Below the pieces are notes generated by a model. That model was not told the origin of the DNA. It worked only from the letters and a program-made list of their open reading frames with translations, and ran no database searches. 35,838 bases of DNA from a virus, in the IMG/VR virus record IMGVR_UViG_3300010970_000028, positions 1 through 35,838 of that record. The stretch is one strand, 5' to 3'. Every line of letters starts with the position of its first letter. The stretch's first letter is position 1. The position numbers and the translations under genes were made by a program. Positions 1,111 to 27,397 of the stretch are shown here, one piece after another.

Positions 1111-2631
1111 TTATGCAACTCGCGGGATATTTCGGCGCAGTGGCTTGTTCCACACGGTGCTTGCGGCAGAGCCGTACATACCCATGATGGCGTCGCTGGC
1201 AAAAGTAAGACAGAATGCATCACCGCGGTCAGGGGAGGCCAAGCCACGCTTGCGAATCTCGTCCTTGCCCTCGATCTGTATCTTCCCCGAACTCGTGAAC
1301 GAGTAGCGGACAGCCGCCAGTTCAGCGATCAAGGACTCATCCTTGGGCATCTTGCAGTCCCGCTGCTCAAGCCAGGCCTTGGCCTTGTGCCATAACTCAG
1401 CTTTCAGGTTTCGGTAGGTGGCTCCCATCGCCGGTGACTCGGAGACGTTGATTCCGCGCGCCGGCAACTTTAGTTCTCGCAGCCGGTCAACGACGCCAGC
1501 GCCCAGGCCGATGCTGTCAACAAGAATCTCGTGGGGTCGCTGGCTCGGAGGCAGAGCCTCGTACTCTGCGACCACTGCGCCCGTCAGTTGCATCAGGTCC
1601 AAGTTCTTCCACGTCTTCACGGGTTCCAGGACGGCATTTCCCTGGCGCTTGCACAGGGCAGACCTGTCGGAGCCGAACCGCGCGACGTCCAATCCCCACA
1701 CCAAACGCGCGTGCGCGGACGGCTCGACATCACGGTTCATGGCCAGTTCAAGCAGTTCCATCGGGATGACCGTGTCGTCATCGCTGCGCGGGAACTCGCC
1801 AAGTACGCGGATGCGGAAGGCGTTGGACTCCTCGCCGTAACGTGATCGCATCTCGTCAACGTAGGCGTCCGAGACTCGCGGGGAGTCGGTGCAGTTGACG
1901 CGCATCGTGACCCAGTCATCCTTCAGCCTGTTGTGGGTGTCGTAAAAGAACCCCGAACTGCGCACAGGGTTGCCCAGCAGCAGGGTCACGGCAGAGTGAC
2001 CCGACATTGAGCCGGCTGCAGCCTCAAAGACCTGCTCGGGGATACCCGACGCCTCGTCCGCGACAAGCATCACGTTCTCACTGTGGACGCCCTGCAACGC
2101 CTCGGGCTGCTCGGCTCGTGATGTCCTGGCTGAGATAAACGCCTCGTTGGGGGCGTCTTTGACCTCGATGCGGTCTTGCTTGACCTCAAGTTGATCTCTA
2201 AGGGTTTCGGGTAGCGCCTTCACCCAGCGCTTCAACTCAGCGAACAGGGCGTCGTACAGTTGGCTGGACGTGGGAGCCGTTAAGACGATTTTTACTGGGA
2301 ACCGCAGGAACAGATACCAAAGGATCGCCCAGGACGCTGCGGTTGACTTGCCGACGCCGTGACCTGATCTGACGCTGATGCGTCGGTTCCCGTCCGCGAT
2401 GTGGTTCAGGAACTCGACCTGCCAGTTGTCGGGCTGCGTGTTTAGCACCTCCTGGACAAACAGGGCAGGGTTGTGCTTGTAGCGCTTCACGAACGCGATG
2501 AACGGGTTCTTGTCCTCGGCTGCGGACATGGTGGCAATCTTGGCAATTGCTTCTGTAGTCAATTCTGCATTTTTTTTATTTTTTTTGGGGAGAGGGGCGA
2601 GTTCCGTCGTGGGGGTGGGGGGTGTGGTCAT
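1111..2631 (-). CDS. terL: Terminase large subunit
   Basis: The 506-residue DNA packaging motor. The N-terminal ATPase has Walker A SGHGVGKST (residues 89-97), Walker B VMLVADE (187-193) and a coupling motif LLLGNP (217-222). The C-terminal RNase H-like nuclease begins with VWGLDVARFGSDRSA (first acidic residue D315). It continues with EILVDSIGLGAG and ends near RGDAFCLTFASD. Length and motif order are normal for the family. It follows terS after a 241-bp noncoding gap. The first 34 residues are low complexity and include an A-rich KKNKKN run, so a start at Met35 (MSAAEDKNPF) is possible. Neither start has a strong ribosome site; GAAAG lies 6 bases before the first ATG. Confidence 0.96.
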   Translation of the reverse strand: MTTPPTPTTELAPLPKKNKKNAELTTEAIAKIATMSAAEDKNPFIAFVKRYKHNPALFVQEVLNTQPDNWQVEFLNHIADGNRRISVRSGHGVGKSTAASWAILWYLFLRFPVKIVLTAPTSSQLYDALFAELKRWVKALPETLRDQLEVKQDRIEVKDAPNEAFISARTSRAEQPEALQGVHSENVMLVADEASGIPEQVFEAAAGSMSGHSAVTLLLGNPVRSSGFFYDTHNRLKDDWVTMRVNCTDSPRVSDAYVDEMRSRYGEESNAFRIRVLGEFPRSDDDTVIPMELLELAMNRDVEPSAHARLVWGLDVARFGSDRSALCKRQGNAVLEPVKTWKNLDLMQLTGAVVAEYEALPPSQRPHEILVDSIGLGAGVVDRLRELKLPARGINVSESPAMGATYRNLKAELWHKAKAWLEQRDCKMPKDESLIAELAAVRYSFTSSGKIQIEGKDEIRKRGLASPDRGDAFCLTFASDAIMGMYGSAASTVWNKPLRRNIPRVA

Positions 2632-2770
2632 TGGCGGCTTTCTATGGGTTGTGGGCGGTGTTTGTCAGGGGCAGCATCAGTCCCGCCCCCGCCGATGGCG
2701 CGAAGGGGGGGGGTCAGGCGGCCAGCGGCCAGTACCCAGCCCAAACCCCACGGAATTCCACGATGCGGAA

Positions 2771-2785
2771 CTGTAATTGATACAG
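2771..2785. repeat. Short perfect inverted repeat
   Basis: CTGTA and TACAG flank a 5-base spacer (ATTGA), giving a 15-base dyad in the AT-rich part of the terS-terL gap, 26 bases from the first DnaA-like box. It could be a protein-binding half-site pair or chance; there is no T run, so it is not an intrinsic terminator. Confidence 0.4.
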
Positions 2786-2811
2786 TGTTCATTATGTTAA
2801 TAGGTTTGCTG

Positions 2812-2868
2812 CTTATGCACAGGTTATACAGCGATTTAGTGCCTGATTGGTACTTATGCACAGGTTAT
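2812..2868 (+). repeat. Two 16-bp direct repeats with DnaA-box consensus
   Basis: CTTATGCACAGGTTAT occurs at 2812-2827 and again, identical, at 2853-2868. The copies are 41 bases apart, close to four helical turns, so they lie on the same DNA face. Each contains TTATGCACA, an exact match to the bacterial DnaA-box consensus TTWTNCACA. Just beyond, GTGGACAA occurs at 2878-2885 and 2893-2900. The second is part of TGTGGACAA, whose reverse complement differs from TTATCCACA at one base; these copies lie in the last codons of terS. Best readings are a host-DnaA-dependent origin or a TerS/pac recognition site. Confidence 0.6.
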
Positions 2869-2873
2869 TGTGA

Positions 2874-3308
2874 CTAAGTGGACAATTTGGGTGTGGACAA
2901 CTGCTCCAGCACCTCGACATGGCGCAGTGCGTCCATGCGCATCCCTTGGATGTTGATGTTGACCGCAGCGCCCTTCTGCTGCGCGTATGCCGGCGCGTTC
3001 CAGCGTTCAGCCGTCCAGTGCCGCGTTTGGATGCGTAGCTTGGCCAGGTTGACCTCCTCGATGGTCGCTGAGTCAGCGATCTCCAGCGCGTCGGACACCA
3101 TCAGATCGGCAGCCCTTACGCGCGCACGCGAGACGGATTCTACGTTCTCCGGCTTGCTTAACCACGTGTTCATCGCATCACGACCCACACCCAACTCCGT
3201 GCATATCCGCGCAATCGACTTTCCATGCTCCAGCATCACGATGATCTGCTCCTGCGGAACCTGATCCAACTTGATGAGGTCTTCCCTCCGTTTTGGTCTA
3301 CCAGCCAT
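2874..3308 (-). CDS. terS: Terminase small subunit
   Basis: A 144-residue DNA-recognition subunit of the packaging terminase. A helix-turn-helix is visible at about residues 28-52 (GKSIARICTELGVGRDAMNT). It is followed by helical segments DLMVSDALEIADSA and EEVNLAKLRIQTRHWTAERW, typical of Sf6-like small terminases, which assemble as a ring. The C terminus (LSTPKLST) overlaps the DnaA-like repeat region. AAAGGG lies 7 bases before the ATG. It directly precedes terL, which supports the call. The family is known to bind the packaging site; the actual site in this genome is unknown. Confidence 0.9.
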   Translation of the reverse strand: MAGRPKRREDLIKLDQVPQEQIIVMLEHGKSIARICTELGVGRDAMNTWLSKPENVESVSRARVRAADLMVSDALEIADSATIEEVNLAKLRIQTRHWTAERWNAPAYAQQKGAAVNINIQGMRMDALRHVEVLEQLSTPKLST

Positions 3309-3375: not shown

Positions 3376-4029
3376 TCAAATTAAGGCATTCCTGCCCGCC
3401 TCTGCCACCTTTGTGTTGAACTTCTTCGGCAGCGTTGACGGTTTGCTGAAATCCAAGTCATTCTCCATATCGTCGAAACCGCTATCACCGCCAACCTTAA
3501 CCATCGTCGCGCCAGGATCAAGTTCCTTAATCCTCATGACCTGCTGCATCACCGTGCCAGCCATCATCGTCTCGATCTCTTCCATGTTCCAAATGTGCCG
3601 TCTCTGAACCTCGGGTCGGAACTGCTGGTACAGCAACGCGTCAGCCTTCGTCTTGACAATGACCATCACCGACCCGTTTACCATCTCATGCTCAATCGCC
3701 GCAATGTCAGGCATCGGCTCTATCCCGTTCTCTACCGCGTACCGCTCCAAGGCGTCATACCCCGCAATCATTCCCTTGACCGCTTTTTCCAACCTCTGCT
3801 CGTCCCGATTCTCTTGAGCCAACCAAACCCGCTCCATCTGATTCCAAAACTTTGTCCTGAGTTCTGCATCCACCAAGTTAATCAACCTATCAGTACCCCA
3901 CACAGCAGTGTGGTCTTTGTTCCGATTGCTGATCGACAACAGCAACGAGTTCAACTTGACCTTGAACGGGTCGGCTGGAAAACTCGGTTGCTCAATCTTT
4001 GCTGCTACTGCACGTTTTTTAGTCACCAT
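3376..4029 (-). CDS. Unknown protein, 217 residues, next to the iteron array
   Basis: No family recognised. The N terminus is basic (MVTKKRAVAAK). A central, mostly helical, charged region (WNQMERVWLAQENRDEQRLE, AVKGMIAGYDALERYAVENG) leads to a block VNGSVMVIVKTKADALLYQ and an acidic stretch GDSGFDDMENDLDF. There is no signal peptide or membrane segment. AAGGA lies 5 bases before the ATG. It lies between the primase-helicase and terS, directly downstream of the palindrome/iteron array, so it could be a replication or DNA-binding partner, or a regulator of its own promoter; this comes from position only. Confidence 0.8.
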   Translation of the reverse strand: MVTKKRAVAAKIEQPSFPADPFKVKLNSLLLSISNRNKDHTAVWGTDRLINLVDAELRTKFWNQMERVWLAQENRDEQRLEKAVKGMIAGYDALERYAVENGIEPMPDIAAIEHEMVNGSVMVIVKTKADALLYQQFRPEVQRRHIWNMEEIETMMAGTVMQQVMRIKELDPGATMVKVGGDSGFDDMENDLDFSKPSTLPKKFNTKVAEAGRNALI

Positions 4030-4140: not shown

Positions 4141-4173
4141 ACCATTTGTTTACCATTTGTTTACCATTTGTTT
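4141..4173. repeat. Three tandem 11-bp iterons
   Basis: ACCATTTGTTT occurs three times without a gap (4141-4151, 4152-4162, 4163-4173). The period is about one helical turn, so bound proteins would line up on one face. A further inverted copy (AACAAATGG) is at 4128-4136, and two more copies form the arms of the palindrome at 4065-4120, giving six in about 110 bases. The last repeat unit supplies part of the stop codon of the primase-helicase gene. The arrangement is typical of iteron origins. Confidence 0.8.
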
Positions 4174-6244
4174 ATTTCTGCTCATCATCAGCACCAAACT
4201 CGGATTCGTCCTCAAAGACCGCCCAAACGTAATCCTTGAACACCACGACCTTGTTTCTTGCTACAAACTGACGCATCAAAAAGCTGAATTTGTTAGAAAT
4301 CTGCTTGCCTGTTTTCTCGTATCCCCACACTTCCTTGAACTTTTCTTTCCAAGAATCGATCTTCACGACCTTGTTTCTCTTGCCGTCAAGGTCCCGCATC
4401 TCGCCAAATTCTTTAATTGCCTTGTGCAGAGAGTCAATGCAAACCTTCTGATCTCCGCCCTTGTCACGCATCAGCGGCGGCTTTTTCTCCTTCTTTTCTG
4501 TGTCAGCCATGACCCTTGTGGCCTCATCCGAAGGGTTAACGGCCAGGCTGATGACTGGTTCCAGCCCCAAGTTGGACTCCGCCAGTTCCACCTCTACCAT
4601 CTCAAACCCGATCTTGATGTTGTCCGCGCCGTCCTTTTGCTTGCTGATGGTTAAGAGTCCCGAACCCGCAATCCCGTCCTTCTTTACGCCCGACTCCATC
4701 TTCAGCAGTTCAAGTTGCGTGTCCACGGCTCCTAGTAACGATGAGTGGCCGCGCAGTCCGCGTGTGGCGTCCTTGCCTGAGTGGTGCAATATCATGATGG
4801 TGCAGTCAAGCATCCTTTGGACTCGTCCGATGTTGGTGATGAACGCTCCCATGTCCTGGCTGTCGTTCTCGTTGCCACCTCCGAAGGCGCGCGCCAAGGT
4901 GTCTATCTGTAGGAGGCTGAACTCGACGCCAGTCTCGTTGATGAGTTGCTGGATCGACAGCATCAAGAGGCTGAAGTCCTCCTCCGAAGAGCGCAGGTTG
5001 AGTTGGTGTCTGATGACGTAGATTTCTGCGCCCTGCTGCGTGTTGTTGTGTACCTTGCACGCCCTGATGCGCGCCCCGATACCGCCATGACCCTCTCCGC
5101 AGATGTACAAGACCGCGCCTGGAGTCTTGATCTCGTTACCCATCCACGTCCGTCCCGTGGCCACAGCCTCGGCAATGTCCAGGGCGATGAACGACTTGTA
5201 TGAGCCTGGCGGACCGTACAGCGCGACGAAGGACTTCTTGGGGATGACCTTCTCAATGAGCCACTCGACTGGCTCGTCCTGTATCGTGTCCCACGACTCG
5301 ATGTTGAGGAACGCTGGCTTGGCTGGTGTTGACTCGTCCTGCTGGTCTGAGTTGAAGTCGTAGTCATCAGATGAACTATTTACGCTGTCCTGACCCAACT
5401 GCTCCTCGTTCGTGTCAGTATCCTGCTGCGTGATGGGTGGTAGCTTCTTGGCCAGGTCTGCGAGTTCCGACCTCGTCCCGCCCATCTGCACCCACTCGTA
5501 GGCGTCGTCGCCTGGGAACGGCAGGTCAAGGTCAAGGTATCTCACTGACTTGGCCACTGGGAGCAGGTTCTTGATTACCTTCTTGGCGTACTTCTTCCCC
5601 GCCTCGTCGTTGTCGGGGACCACCACCACGTTGGCGCCGGCGAAGTACTGCGTTATCTCCTCCGGCCAGTGCCCAGCCCCTGCGTGCGACGTCGTGGCTA
5701 TGGCTCCGATTGAGACTAAGGCGTCGGCCGCCTTCTCACCCTCCACCAAGTAGATGGCTCTGCCGGCTGTCTTGGCGTCAAGTAGTTCGGGGAACCTGTA
5801 GGGGACGATCCTGCAATCGCCCAGCCTGGCGTGCCGACGGCCTAGTGCGTCAACTCGGACCAGGCGGTAGTCCTTGCCCTTTTCCGTGTTCGTCTTGAAC
5901 CTCTGCTTGATGAACAGGGTGTTCCTGTCCTCGTCCAAGTACTCCCACTCCTTCTCCAACTTCATGGGTTGAGGCGCGAGCGTGGCGAGGCTACTAAAAA
6001 TCTCGTCGCGCTTTGGCAGTTCAGGCAGCAGACCCCTGTCCTTGATCGCGTTGAACACGTCCTGCTGGTCGCACCCGCCGTGGCAGTGGAACAGGTACTT
6101 CCCGTCCTGGGACTCAGAGATCGACAGGGATGGGTTCTTGTCACCATTCCCCTTGCCGTGTGATTGGACTGGGCATGACGCCAGCCACGACCCGTTTGCT
6201 TGCTTCGCGTTGCCTAGTGCCTGCGCTATTTGTTCGGCTTGCAT
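4172..6244 (-). CDS. Bifunctional primase-helicase (zinc finger, TOPRIM, RecA-like ATPase)
   Basis: A 690-residue replication protein. The N-terminal zinc-binding motif uses C24, H29, C54 and C58 (CPVQSHG...FHCHGGC). The TOPRIM domain has YLVEGEKAADAL (E168) and VVVPDNDEAG (D211, D213), the catalytic acidic residues of primase folds. After an acidic linker (about 272-310) comes a RepA/RecA-type ATPase with Walker A GPPGSYKS (344-351), Walker B LLQIDTL (444-450) and LHHSGKDATRGLRG (486-499), as in hexameric helicases. A charged C-terminal region follows. It should prime and unwind DNA for a host polymerase, as no phage polymerase is seen. Its start overlaps the methyltransferase stop by 19 bases, and its stop lies in the iteron array. 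Confidence 0.93.
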   Translation of the reverse strand: MQAEQIAQALGNAKQANGSWLASCPVQSHGKGNGDKNPSLSISESQDGKYLFHCHGGCDQQDVFNAIKDRGLLPELPKRDEIFSSLATLAPQPMKLEKEWEYLDEDRNTLFIKQRFKTNTEKGKDYRLVRVDALGRRHARLGDCRIVPYRFPELLDAKTAGRAIYLVEGEKAADALVSIGAIATTSHAGAGHWPEEITQYFAGANVVVVPDNDEAGKKYAKKVIKNLLPVAKSVRYLDLDLPFPGDDAYEWVQMGGTRSELADLAKKLPPITQQDTDTNEEQLGQDSVNSSSDDYDFNSDQQDESTPAKPAFLNIESWDTIQDEPVEWLIEKVIPKKSFVALYGPPGSYKSFIALDIAEAVATGRTWMGNEIKTPGAVLYICGEGHGGIGARIRACKVHNNTQQGAEIYVIRHQLNLRSSEEDFSLLMLSIQQLINETGVEFSLLQIDTLARAFGGGNENDSQDMGAFITNIGRVQRMLDCTIMILHHSGKDATRGLRGHSSLLGAVDTQLELLKMESGVKKDGIAGSGLLTISKQKDGADNIKIGFEMVEVELAESNLGLEPVISLAVNPSDEATRVMADTEKKEKKPPLMRDKGGDQKVCIDSLHKAIKEFGEMRDLDGKRNKVVKIDSWKEKFKEVWGYEKTGKQISNKFSFLMRQFVARNKVVVFKDYVWAVFEDESEFGADDEQK

Positions 6245-7653
6245 AGTTGTTCTACCTCGTTTATTCTTTTACCGATCCACGCCATCACAGGCACGGCCAT
6301 TGAGTTGCCCAGCGCCTTGTACCTCGGACCGTCAGGAGTCGCCTTGCCCTTACTCATAATGTCCGTGTAAGTATCGGGAAAGCCTTGCAGCCTCTCGCAC
6401 TCCACAGGTGTGAGTCTGCGAACTGCCATTGACGCTTGCAATACCGAATACACCTGTTGCGTCACCTCAGATGACTGTGGCGATCTGCTTGGATCGTTGG
6501 CTGCTGTAAGTGTTGGGGCGACAACCGTAGGCTGCGCCACCGTATTGTCAAATACTCCACCAGCGGCACAACGCAATGCAGTAACAGTATCTGATGTTGT
6601 TTGGTTGTAAGCATCAAAGGCAATGGGTTGCGCCACCGCATGGCTATGCGCCTTGGTAAGTGTTGGGCATGGGTCGCCTTCCTTGCCAATTCCACTACCC
6701 ATGCGGCCTTCTTTATCGCCTGGTCTGCCTTGCATTGCCATTGTGTTAAGTGGGATTGGCTGCGCCACATTTGTACCAATGCCAGCCTTTGTCATCGTGC
6801 TTGATACATCAGTCTCGCTGACATACAAACCACCATTGGGTCGGTCTGACCTTGTCCCATTGGCATCGCAAAAGGTGATGTTGTAGGCAATGGGTTGCGT
6901 TATCACCGGCACATTCCCACCGCCAGTTCCAAATTTGCTTGTGACGGTGCTGCAAGTCTCACCAAGGTCACGGACACGGCTGTCTTGACCATGCATTTCA
7001 TAAACAGGCTGAGTTATTAAGTCTTCGGTTTCAAAGTCGTAACGCTGGCCAGCGCCTCTTGTAAGGCACTTGGCAGGGTCTTCCCTCTTTTTTCGGCTCG
7101 GCGCAGGATTCCCTGACAGGCTTTCTCGCTCAAAAAGAACCGCTGCGGCACGTCTCCAGTCTCCAAGGTATCCGACAACGAACACACGTCTGCGTCTTTG
7201 GGCCACTCCGAAGTACTGAGCGTCAAGAATCCTGTATGCGAACCCATACCCGAGTTCGCCCAGCGCCCCGAGGAAGACTCCAAAATCTTTTCCTCCGTTA
7301 GATGACAGGACGCCAGGGACGTTTTCCCAAACAATCCACTTGGGTTTATATTGGTCAGCAATGGCAAGATAGGTAAGCATGAGGTTGCCACGAGGGTCAT
7401 CCAGTCCCTTTCGTAGTCCGGCGACTGAGAAAGATTGGCAGGGAGTTCCTCCAACGAGAAGATCGACATCTGAGACATTTGTCCATTCCTTAAATTTTGT
7501 CATGTCACCCAAGTTGGGTGTGTTTGGGTAGTGGTGGGCGAGTACCTCAGATGGGAATCTTTCGATCTCTGAGTACGCTACTGCCTCCCATCCAAGTGGA
7601 TGCCACGCTACCGTTGCCGCTTCTATGCCACTGCAAAGTGATAGATATTTCAT
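6226..7653 (-). CDS. C5-cytosine DNA methyltransferase with repeated target-recognition region
   Basis: A 475-residue enzyme that transfers a methyl group from S-adenosylmethionine to cytosine C5. Visible motifs are I (SLCSGIEAATVAW, 5-17), IV with catalytic C72 (GGTPCQSFSVAG), VI (WENVPG, 109-114), VIII (FGVAQRRRRVFVVG), IX-like (RLTPVECERLQGFP) and X (YKALGNSMAVPV). Between VIII and IX, residues 218-376 hold four diverged modules of 32-45 residues, each ending in TQPI, AQPI or AQPT and containing a T-(V/M/L)-T core. This resembles multi-module recognition regions of phage methyltransferases. It has no visible partner endonuclease, so a protective role is likely. No ribosome site is seen, and a terminator lies just upstream, so expression may be low or depend on readthrough. 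Confidence 0.94.
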   Translation of the reverse strand: MKYLSLCSGIEAATVAWHPLGWEAVAYSEIERFPSEVLAHHYPNTPNLGDMTKFKEWTNVSDVDLLVGGTPCQSFSVAGLRKGLDDPRGNLMLTYLAIADQYKPKWIVWENVPGVLSSNGGKDFGVFLGALGELGYGFAYRILDAQYFGVAQRRRRVFVVGYLGDWRRAAAVLFERESLSGNPAPSRKKREDPAKCLTRGAGQRYDFETEDLITQPVYEMHGQDSRVRDLGETCSTVTSKFGTGGGNVPVITQPIAYNITFCDANGTRSDRPNGGLYVSETDVSSTMTKAGIGTNVAQPIPLNTMAMQGRPGDKEGRMGSGIGKEGDPCPTLTKAHSHAVAQPIAFDAYNQTTSDTVTALRCAAGGVFDNTVAQPTVVAPTLTAANDPSRSPQSSEVTQQVYSVLQASMAVRRLTPVECERLQGFPDTYTDIMSKGKATPDGPRYKALGNSMAVPVMAWIGKRINEVEQLCKPNK

Positions 7654-8330: not shown

Positions 8331-9401
8331 TTATTGTCCAAGTCCAACTGCTTTGGCAAGCGTTAAACCTGAAGATTCTTTTTTGGTGATGTTCTCAAGG
8401 ACGTGCTTCTTGTCCTTGCCCAAGAGTTTCTCTGCCGCCGCAGGAGAAATCACCTCGGTCAGCATGAGTTTGCTGTGTTCTATTCCCGCATCCTCCAGCG
8501 CCACTACCGCCGCGGCCTCATCGATCCACTTGCGCGTTGCGCGCTTTGGTGACAGTTGCCAGCCTGACAGGACACCGCCCTCTTCCAATACCTTCGTGGC
8601 GTGCTTGCGCAGCGCCGCGATGAAGTCCTCAACCATGTCAGCCCTGGCCAGCAGGTCGCTGACCACTTCAGGAGCGAGGGTCTTGACATCCAACTTGACG
8701 GGAATCAGTTCCAACGCCTTTGTCTGCGCGGGGCAGATCACCTTGGCTGGGCAGTAGCGGCACGCGTCAGTGGATGGCTTTGGCTGGGCGTCTTTGTTTG
8801 CTGACTCAGCGATCGCAGGAATCAGAACGTCGGCCTTCCAACTGTTCAACTCATCCACCGTCATGGTGTGGGTGCGAGTTGGACCTGAGTGCGGCTGGAT
8901 GATGGACAGCCTGACAGTCTCCACGGGCTTGGACTTGATCTTGGCAAGCGTACCCAGCGCGTAAATCTTCATCTGATCGCTGTCAGCGTCCACGTACCCT
9001 CGTCCAGTCTTTAGGTCGGCTATCTCAAGGATGCCATTGCCAAACCCGATCACGTCCGCAGTCCCGCCCAACTTAACAGCCGTGTTGTCAATCACCGTCA
9101 CGTACTGCTCGACCTTGACGGCTCCAAGTTCTGCCTGGAGTGCTGTGATGTGGTCAAGGTGAGCCTGGGCGAACTCCACGTTCTCCTGAGTCATCGTGAT
9201 GCCCTCGACGGACTTGCCAAGGTAGGCGTCAGCCCTCTCGCCAGTCCCGCAGCACTTCTCGGCCAGGGCATGGATGGCAGTTCCGATCTGCGCGGCCTCA
9301 CCAGCGGGTTCGTAGGGTACGCCTTCAGAGAGTCGTACAGATGCGGGGCAGGCAATCCAGCGTGAGGCTGAACTTGGCCGTAGGATTATTTTGTTCGCCA
9401 T
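8331..9401 (-). CDS. PD-(D/E)XK exonuclease with Cas4-like Fe-S cysteines (DUF2800-like)
   Basis: A 356-residue nuclease of the RecB/Cas4 type. Motifs: SASRWIACPASVRLSEG with C18, an upstream histidine (H44 in GTAIHALAEK), GGTADVI (D116) and EIADLKTGRG (D129-x-K131). A late cluster C214-x2-C217-x5-C223 follows. One early cysteine plus three late ones is the iron-sulfur staple arrangement of Cas4/AddB nucleases. The family degrades DNA ends, and in phages this often supports recombination or host DNA breakdown. It overlaps the small gene upstream by 16 bases and sits between RuvC-like and SSB-like genes, which fits recombination. No annealing protein was recognised nearby. Confidence 0.88.
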   Translation of the reverse strand: MANKIILRPSSASRWIACPASVRLSEGVPYEPAGEAAQIGTAIHALAEKCCGTGERADAYLGKSVEGITMTQENVEFAQAHLDHITALQAELGAVKVEQYVTVIDNTAVKLGGTADVIGFGNGILEIADLKTGRGYVDADSDQMKIYALGTLAKIKSKPVETVRLSIIQPHSGPTRTHTMTVDELNSWKADVLIPAIAESANKDAQPKPSTDACRYCPAKVICPAQTKALELIPVKLDVKTLAPEVVSDLLARADMVEDFIAALRKHATKVLEEGGVLSGWQLSPKRATRKWIDEAAAVVALEDAGIEHSKLMLTEVISPAAAEKLLGKDKKHVLENITKKESSGLTLAKAVGLGQ

Positions 9402-26202: not shown

Positions 26203-26555
26203 ACAGTAATCTGACCAAGAACAAACGCTTGAGGTGTAGCAGTAGCAATACTTACAGGCGTTTCGACACCAACTAAAGAAGTCACCGCAGACAAAGATGT
26301 ATCCACATTAGGATTAAGTACATCTTCTTGTGTTTTTAGCCATTCAACTGGTGCTCTTGCGTTAATGAAATCATTCAATGCTGACCCTGTTGGGGCTGGC
26401 ACAGGCAAGTCAATAGAGTAGTCCGTTCGGCATCTGCGAATAGCACCATCAAGAACGTCAGTTGCAAGCATTTCCTCTGTGATGATGTCTGTGTAATATC
26501 TAACAACAATTGAATGTTCGTTAGTGTTTACTTCTACAATTTTGTATTTAATCAT
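26199..26555 (-). CDS. Unknown protein coupled to adhesin, 118 residues
   Basis: I start at 26555, where ATG overlaps the adhesin stop (ATGA); the longer frame from 26591 enters the adhesin gene. The protein (MIKYKIVEVNTNEHSIVVRY, YTDIITEEMLATDVLDGAIR, RTDYSIDLPVPAPTGSALND) has a beta-rich first half and ends QAFVLGQITV. It sits directly downstream of the glycine-rich adhesin, so a chaperone or tail-fibre assembly role is possible, like small proteins following fibre genes in other phages. No direct sequence match was recognised. Confidence 0.72.
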   Translation of the reverse strand: MIKYKIVEVNTNEHSIVVRYYTDIITEEMLATDVLDGAIRRCRTDYSIDLPVPAPTGSALNDFINARAPVEWLKTQEDVLNPNVDTSLSAVTSLVGVETPVSIATATPQAFVLGQITV

Positions 26556-27397
26556 GATGCTGTTCCATTCCTTGTTCCGTTTGCTATCCATGTTACGTTT
26601 GAGTTACCCGAAATATACGCTCCAATAGTTCCAGCAGAGCCAGTTGAACCTGAAGAGCCAGCAGCACCACCAGCGCCGCCTCCTCCTGGGCTTCCGTTTG
26701 AGTTTCCAGCAGCACCGCCGGAGCCGGAAGCGCCTGATGCTCCACCTGATCCACCTACGCCGCCGCCATAACCACCGCCGGATCCACCAAAAGGTCCTCC
26801 TCCAGCAACGCTATAACCTGCTCCTCCGGAACCTCCGCTAGTAAAGTCCTTACCTAATATTCCACGCGCTCCAGCACCACCACCACCGCCTGAACGAGTA
26901 CCAGCAGAACCACCTGCGCCACCTGAACCAGCAGTTCCACCTGAAATAGTGTTTATGTTGTTAATGGAAACAGCGACAGATGCAAGTATTGCAAGTCCAC
27001 CAGTTCCACCAGCACCACCAGTTCCACCATTTCCAGCGGCTCCACCAGCACTTCCTGAAGCCCCTGGACTTCCTGTACTTCCAGCGCCACCAGCGCCAGC
27101 AGCACCATGAGTACCTGTAGACCCTGTAGACCCTGTTGCCCCAGTGTATCCCTGGATTGTTCCGCTATTGACTAGCGTTACTCCTGATGGGAATGATCCA
27201 TCAATTGTTAAGGCTGTGCCTGAACCAGTTCCGCTGATTGTGTTACCCGAAGGGATTGTTGCAATTACTTTTCCAAAACCAGTCCATCCAGCCGCTAATG
27301 CTTGCGTCCGCAGATTTAAGTTCGACCCAGTAGTAAGGTTGAAATTAAAGTCGGGTATGCCACCACCCGCCAGCAGGAAGTTTTTAGCAGCAAACAT
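26552..27397 (-). CDS. Glycine-rich adhesin-like protein
   Basis: A 281-residue protein. The N-terminal part (FAAKNFLLAGGGIPDFNFNL, IATIPSGNTISGTGSGTAL) is beta-rich. From about residue 83 to 260 it is dominated by Gly with Ala, Ser and Thr (GYTGATGSTGSTGTHGAAGA, GGSGGAGYSVAGGGPFGG). This is similar to the glycine-rich motifs that form polyglycine-II sandwiches in T-even gp38 adhesins, and to collagen-like fibre parts. A non-Gly insert (LAILASVAVSINNINTISGG) could be a loop. The tail ends SNVTWIANGTRNGTAS. It is in the fibre block and probably recognises a host receptor. Confidence 0.75.
   Translation of the reverse strand: MFAAKNFLLAGGGIPDFNFNLTTGSNLNLRTQALAAGWTGFGKVIATIPSGNTISGTGSGTALTIDGSFPSGVTLVNSGTIQGYTGATGSTGSTGTHGAAGAGGAGSTGSPGASGSAGGAAGNGGTGGAGGTGGLAILASVAVSINNINTISGGTAGSGGAGGSAGTRSGGGGGAGARGILGKDFTSGGSGGAGYSVAGGGPFGGSGGGYGGGVGGSGGASGASGSGGAAGNSNGSPGGGGAGGAAGSSGSTGSAGTIGAYISGNSNVTWIANGTRNGTAS

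Follow-up and report, generated by a model that had tools for sequence, protein, structure and literature searches.

A preliminary description of the phage DNA analyzed here (the window, the whole record of 35,838 bases) placed two exact DnaA boxes between the genes for the small and large terminase (terS and terL), and we asked what they might be doing there. That description had offered two readings, an origin dependent on host DnaA or a TerS/pac site, and had proposed a link between replication and packaging. The ends of the record join in one reading frame and, since an open reading frame passes through them, the record is most likely circular and complete. The - strand carries nearly all genes, in the order exonuclease, DNA methyltransferase, primase-helicase, orf217, terS, a gap of 242 bases and terL, with the portal, capsid and tail genes coming after terL (Table 1). 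The DNA methyltransferase gene (6226-7653, - strand) stands directly before the primase and is partly conserved among relatives; a 153-aa ORF that overlaps it (7017-7478) may be artefactual. Elsewhere, a very glycine-rich, collagen-like protein (26552-27397, - strand) is perhaps a tail or fibre protein.

Table 1. Features of the terS-terL gap and neighboring genes in the window.
Feature	Coordinates	Strand	Remarks
terL (large terminase)	1111..2631	-	phrog_2
C9...G5 tract element just before terL	2686..2713	-	Candidate packaging/terminal-repeat end signal
AT-rich, easily melted segment adjoining the boxes	2769..2812	.	Candidate unwinding element
28-bp dif/cer-like XerC/XerD core	2775..2802	+	AATTGATACAG-TGTTCA-TTATGTTAATA; center of the array
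22-nt direct repeat	2806..2868	+	Two copies, 41-bp period
Exact DnaA box	2813..2821	+	TTATGCACA; array position -21, read on - strand; one of the most frequent places for an exact box in relatives
Exact DnaA box	2854..2862	+	TTATGCACA; array position -62; commonest exact box position in relatives
terS (small terminase)	2874..3308	-	Sf6-type, phrog_1482
Weaker near-box	2877..2885	-	TTGTCCACT; conserved among close relatives; L103 version TTATCCACT
Near DnaA box	2892..2900	-	TTGTCCACA; position -100; overlaps terS 3' end
orf217	3376..4029	-	Conserved partner gene between primase and terS
Primase-helicase	4172..6244	-	TOPRIM-like + AAA_25/RepA-like; replication module tracked by the array

The two exact boxes lie where they had been reported, each within one copy of a direct repeat (2806-2827 and 2847-2868, 91% identical) whose spacing is exactly 41 bases and whose shared core, CTTATGCACAGGTTAT, occupies 2812-2827 and 2853-2868. 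The near-match boxes said to continue into terS (TGTGGACAA at 2892-2900 and AGTGGACAA at 2877-2885) are also present, with the correction that most close relatives have a perfect TTATCCACA in place of the 2892-2900 box, a sequence from which the window's copy is one base off. The inverted repeat noted at 2771-2785 is the palindrome CTGTA-N5-TACAG. The least stable 30-bp segment of positions 2741-2900 begins at 2774 and ranks within the lowest-stability 0.1% of the genome, and no exact IHF consensus occurs in the window's own array; such a site is frequent at DnaA-dependent origins, though not all of them need one. Both exact TTATNCACA boxes of the 35.8-kb genome sit in the gap, with no others elsewhere. 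Two is nevertheless an unremarkable count (shuffle mean 0.93; at least 2 in 24 of 100 shuffles) and is not significant by itself, so that the case depends on conservation. A GC-skew analysis, one of the checks proposed with the preliminary description, was uninformative at the site, being confounded by gene orientation with nearly all genes on one strand.

Relatives were gathered from IMG/VR scans with TerL, TerS and orf217, and conservation was assessed in 15 homologous gaps, or clusters, that are mutually less than 60% identical and amount to 6,251 bp in total. These divergent gaps hold 31 exact DnaA boxes, against a mean of 0.20 and a maximum of 2 in shuffles, and the boxes keep fixed positions; conservation in related genomes, which had been proposed as a check on the repeats, is thereby established for the boxes. 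The exact IHF consensus WATCARNNNNTTR is found in 9 of the 15 clusters, compared with 0.33 in shuffles. A count of 9-mers that presupposed no motif found TTATCCACA, along with its shifted form, in 13 of the 15 clusters, TTGTCCACA in 11 and TTAACATAA in 10, where the best 9-mer in shuffles reaches 4. Among the nearest relatives hardly any change is seen in the boxes or in the segment TATTAACATAATGAACACTGTATCAATTACAGTTCCGCATC, and the spacer between the two repeats is freely variable. Farther relatives (TerL 79-87%) keep arrays at differing spacings, chiefly as TTATCCACA and TTGTCCACA, and in distant phages (TerL about 30%) an array still lies near terS and terL, often between the two. Array DNA gave only chance-level matches in cultured phages.

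Because the gap precedes terL, the array could be read as a DnaA-regulated promoter or leader for that gene, and DnaA does also act as a transcription factor (PMC8203912). Arrays are found in both orientations relative to the genes, however, which is unlike a promoter or mRNA element. They are also tied to replication genes, and in one group, described below, the array is found upstream of terS and not in a terS-terL gap. We consider this reading, which the inverted arrays disfavor, highly improbable.

Phages with other combinations of replication and terminase genes reveal what the array is inherited with. Where homologues of TerS and TerL accompany the window's primase/orf217 module, exact boxes are present in 61/63 cases. 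In module-minus phages (L106-L131; TerS 45-51%, TerL 79-86%) boxes are present in 0 of 14 distinct gaps; these gaps are short (79-206 bp), and the phages examined encode a DUF5906-type primase instead. Since the module-minus phages make up one side of the TerL tree, that contrast counts as a single evolutionary event. Conversely, three groups (L170-173, L175 and L176/L179) have primase, orf217 and array despite terminases that are distant (TerL about 29% identical) or of another family. The array is downstream of orf217 in all three, and in L170-173 it comes before the presumed terS instead of between terS and terL. Representatives resemble their closest compared partners in primase and array and differ from them in terminases: L171 and L064 (primase 77%, array 78%), L175 and L178 (87% and 78%), and L179 and L161 (82% and 86%). 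The array is co-inherited with the replication genes, not with the terminase, whereas a site for TerS would be expected to behave the other way round.

This two-way dissociation argues against a TerS/pac site and for an origin dependent on host DnaA. A TerS-binding (pac or cos) site built from the 41-bp repeats would suit the location between terS and terL, and the terminal repeat of phage phiM5, discussed below, covers the corresponding region. Boxes are nonetheless absent beside homologous TerS and TerL that occur with another primase and present beside other terminases; moreover, the repeat sequence is exactly the general DnaA consensus, and a different element, the C-run, tracks the terminase. 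We have rejected the TerS-binding site as having very little probability. The origin half of the earlier suggestion is supported, its boxes being conserved and following the replication module.

The same linkage bears on whether the array is a decoy in the manner of datA or DARS, titrating host DnaA or changing its nucleotide state and so blocking initiation at the host chromosome. For datA, an IHF site placed between DnaA boxes is required (PMC5835720), and the relatives' arrays, with DnaA boxes and IHF, have similar parts. A decoy should work with any replication module, however, and would not be expected to be tied to one and absent with other replication proteins, as this array is. Unlike the window's array, datA and DARS of E. 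coli are chromosomal control loci with no link to a phage replication module, and we regard a decoy as improbable.

No DnaA, O-like initiator or DNA polymerase was recognized among the phage proteins scanned, a set that covered the small ORFs in part. The product of orf217, which accompanies the primase as a conserved partner in dozens of phages from the environment, has a conserved C-terminal motif (SGFDDxxNDLD...PKxF). It gave no match in Pfam, in PHROG or among PDB folds, and no cultured homologue turned up in 50,697 phage records. Its AlphaFold model is of moderate confidence (pLDDT 75), and a function from fold was dropped when comparison of the model with the PDB gave no credible match. 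As to the host, two scans covering 84,980 bacterial and archaeal genomes found no close relative.

Inside the array lies a conserved XerC/XerD-like core that the preliminary description had missed. It was recognized after a plasmid search in which the L064 array, over its central segment, matched plasmids of Acinetobacter; this match led to a comparison with dif, and the idea that the central 24-bp dyad was an initiator site was dropped. The core has an 11-6-11 layout, with an XerD half (TTATGTTAAGT), a variable 6-bp center and an XerC half that mostly ends in ACAA or ACGA. Compared with E. coli dif, the XerD half (reference form TTATGTTAAAT) matches at 9/11 positions in the window and at 10/11 in most clusters, and the XerC half at 3/11 in the window and up to 7-8/11 in some relatives. 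The window's whole-site score falls within the shuffled range, and the case for the core therefore rests on conservation.

We then have the spacing of the other elements around the core. Sampling IMG/VR by the core only, with neither proteins nor boxes, yielded 80 loci, of which 72 carry an exact DnaA box no more than 300 bp away. Measured from the core, boxes occur at -100 (+), -77 or -87 (+), -62 (-), and -21 (-) or -15 (+); those of the window are at -100 (+, one mismatch), -62 (-) and -21 (-). Exact IHF sites right of the core occur only at +59-61 or +69-70, positions one helical turn apart. This fixed phase suggests that core, boxes and IHF act in one complex. Two further features were seen in particular lineages: L049, L058, L180 and their relatives have two GTAAG repeats, 11 bp (one helical turn) apart, between the core and the IHF site, and the lineage of L161-L168 and L179 has its box/core array in the reverse orientation with respect to the genes.

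The layout of 28 bp as 11-6-11 and the XerD half (TTATGTTAA) are shared with dif, cer and psi and with the dif-like sites of CTXphi and NO16. The Xer-using phages described in PMC2731167 and PMC9966536 are filamentous or tailless and integrate. In contrast to users of the CTXphi and NO16 type, the window is from a tailed phage, and DnaA boxes, joined in relatives by IHF sites, flank its Xer-like site.

The element that tracks the terminase consists of 6-9 or more C in a row, in many cases with a G-run after it. Homologues of this TerL, whether or not they come with the module, have it close to the terL start or immediately ahead of it. Its distance from the array is about 60-100 bp. A stable hairpin at the window's copy was rejected because its folding is not significant; a z of -2.4 was reached in the module-minus type only. 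Sinorhizobium phage phiM5 (MF074189), with a TerL 55% identical, has an annotated 357-bp direct terminal repeat that starts inside a gene matching terS, stops 36 bp before terL, and carries C9 (315-323) and G5 (340-344) tracts at its end. phiM5 thus shares the C-run/G-run element with the window, but neither exact DnaA boxes nor an Xer core were found across 8 kb of its left end. By analogy, the packaging end of the window would lie near 2670, and a repeat of similar length, which could differ, would include the whole array. The C-run/G-run element is a likelier packaging signal than the array. The proposed link between replication and packaging is plausible by position, since the C-run element lies near the array and matches the end of the phiM5 terminal repeat.

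In L190, L200 and L238 the central core is present with no boxes nearby. It follows, at a distance of 22 bp, a gene whose L200 version has matches to HTH_36 and to O-like replication initiators. These three and L208 have a dif-like core (at 8685-8705 of the L200 locus) and a C-run element without DnaA boxes, and in the first three the core stands between the O-like initiator gene and the terminase genes; in L208 the initiator gene is outside the sequence covered. They appear to be a second phage group with an Xer-like site near the packaging genes. Boxes are seen where a phage initiator is unrecognizable, and each appears to stand in for the other.

The persistence of the core beside the C-run element in phages without boxes, together with the fixed spacing of boxes and IHF sites from the 28-bp core, could mean that the array is primarily an Xer recombination site with DnaA and IHF as accessories, the real origin being elsewhere, for example in the primase gene. 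Genomes would then be circularized or resolved at the site, or the phage would insert at the host dif site. Accessory proteins are familiar from cer and psi (ArgR/PepA or ArcA/PepA); we know of no case in which DnaA serves an Xer reaction in this way. Contig ends give weak support for recombination here: 5 of 48 ends in relatives fall within 13 bp at one core edge (Poisson about 5e-4, for a 13-bp interval picked post hoc), a pile-up that may be an assembly artefact. Against a primarily recombinational role, the absence of boxes where an O-like or DUF5906 replication protein occurs fits an origin better, and the scans of 84,980 bacterial and archaeal genomes yielded no integrase-like or prophage evidence. 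We judge such a role unlikely, although among the alternatives it is the main one.

The explanation that we favor, with moderate confidence and on the strength of comparative sequence data, is that the terS-terL gap serves as a plasmid-like origin driven by host proteins, incorporating an Xer site and adjoining the packaging end. The window's missing IHF consensus, its degenerate box and the poor XerC half of its core weigh against this explanation. From the arrangements described above we infer DnaA binding, initiation, Xer recombination and the position within a terminal repeat. Host DnaA would load onto the box array; IHF, where present, would bend the DNA; and the AT-rich segment beside the boxes would open, allowing the phage primase-helicase to be loaded there, perhaps with the help of orf217. 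Host XerC/XerD would join or resolve genome copies at the dif-like core. They might circularize the entering linear genome, if the core lies in a terminal repeat, as Cre-loxP does for P1, or they might resolve dimers or multimers. A more ambitious version would unite a DnaA/IHF origin, a phase-fixed XerC/XerD core and the packaging end in about 200 bp of a tailed-phage terminal-repeat region, the dimer-resolution machinery circularizing the incoming genome and DnaA starting replication in the same complex; this we put forward tentatively, as possible but somewhat doubtful.

Parts of this arrangement have familiar counterparts. DnaA-dependent origins include bacterial oriC and those of the plasmids pSC101 and P1 (oriR), and the array resembles them in its clustered TTATNCACA-consensus boxes beside AT-rich DNA and replication genes, with an IHF site in many relatives of the window. 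It differs from them in lying at the replication/packaging boundary of a phage and in being built around a dif-like core and, unlike Rep/iteron origins, would work, if at all, with a phage primase-helicase. In P1, loxP-Cre lies beside pac and is suited to circularizing terminally redundant DNA. The putative recombination site of the window is likewise near a candidate packaging end; unlike P1, it would use host XerC/XerD and no phage recombinase, in a terminal repeat that is itself deduced by analogy. DnaA-dependent origins, Xer sites and filamentous or tailless Xer phages are each well known. Our literature search, which covered few subscription journals, found no paper combining phage, DnaA boxes, terminase and IHF, and no report of tailed phages in which an oriC-like array and a dif-like core coincide at the terminase genes. 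DnaA sites showed no positional asymmetry when alphaproteobacterial phages were surveyed (PMC9437464).

The origins of uncultivated tailed phages are rarely located, and here a candidate can be picked out from its sequence in numerous related contigs from a public collection of viruses. We predict that these phages need host DnaA, and probably host IHF and XerC/XerD too. In them, DnaA boxes and initiators encoded by the phage appear to substitute for one another at one and the same site, which amounts to a natural experiment. Should the Xer core be functional, these would be tailed phages that use the host's chromosome-dimer resolution beside their packaging site.
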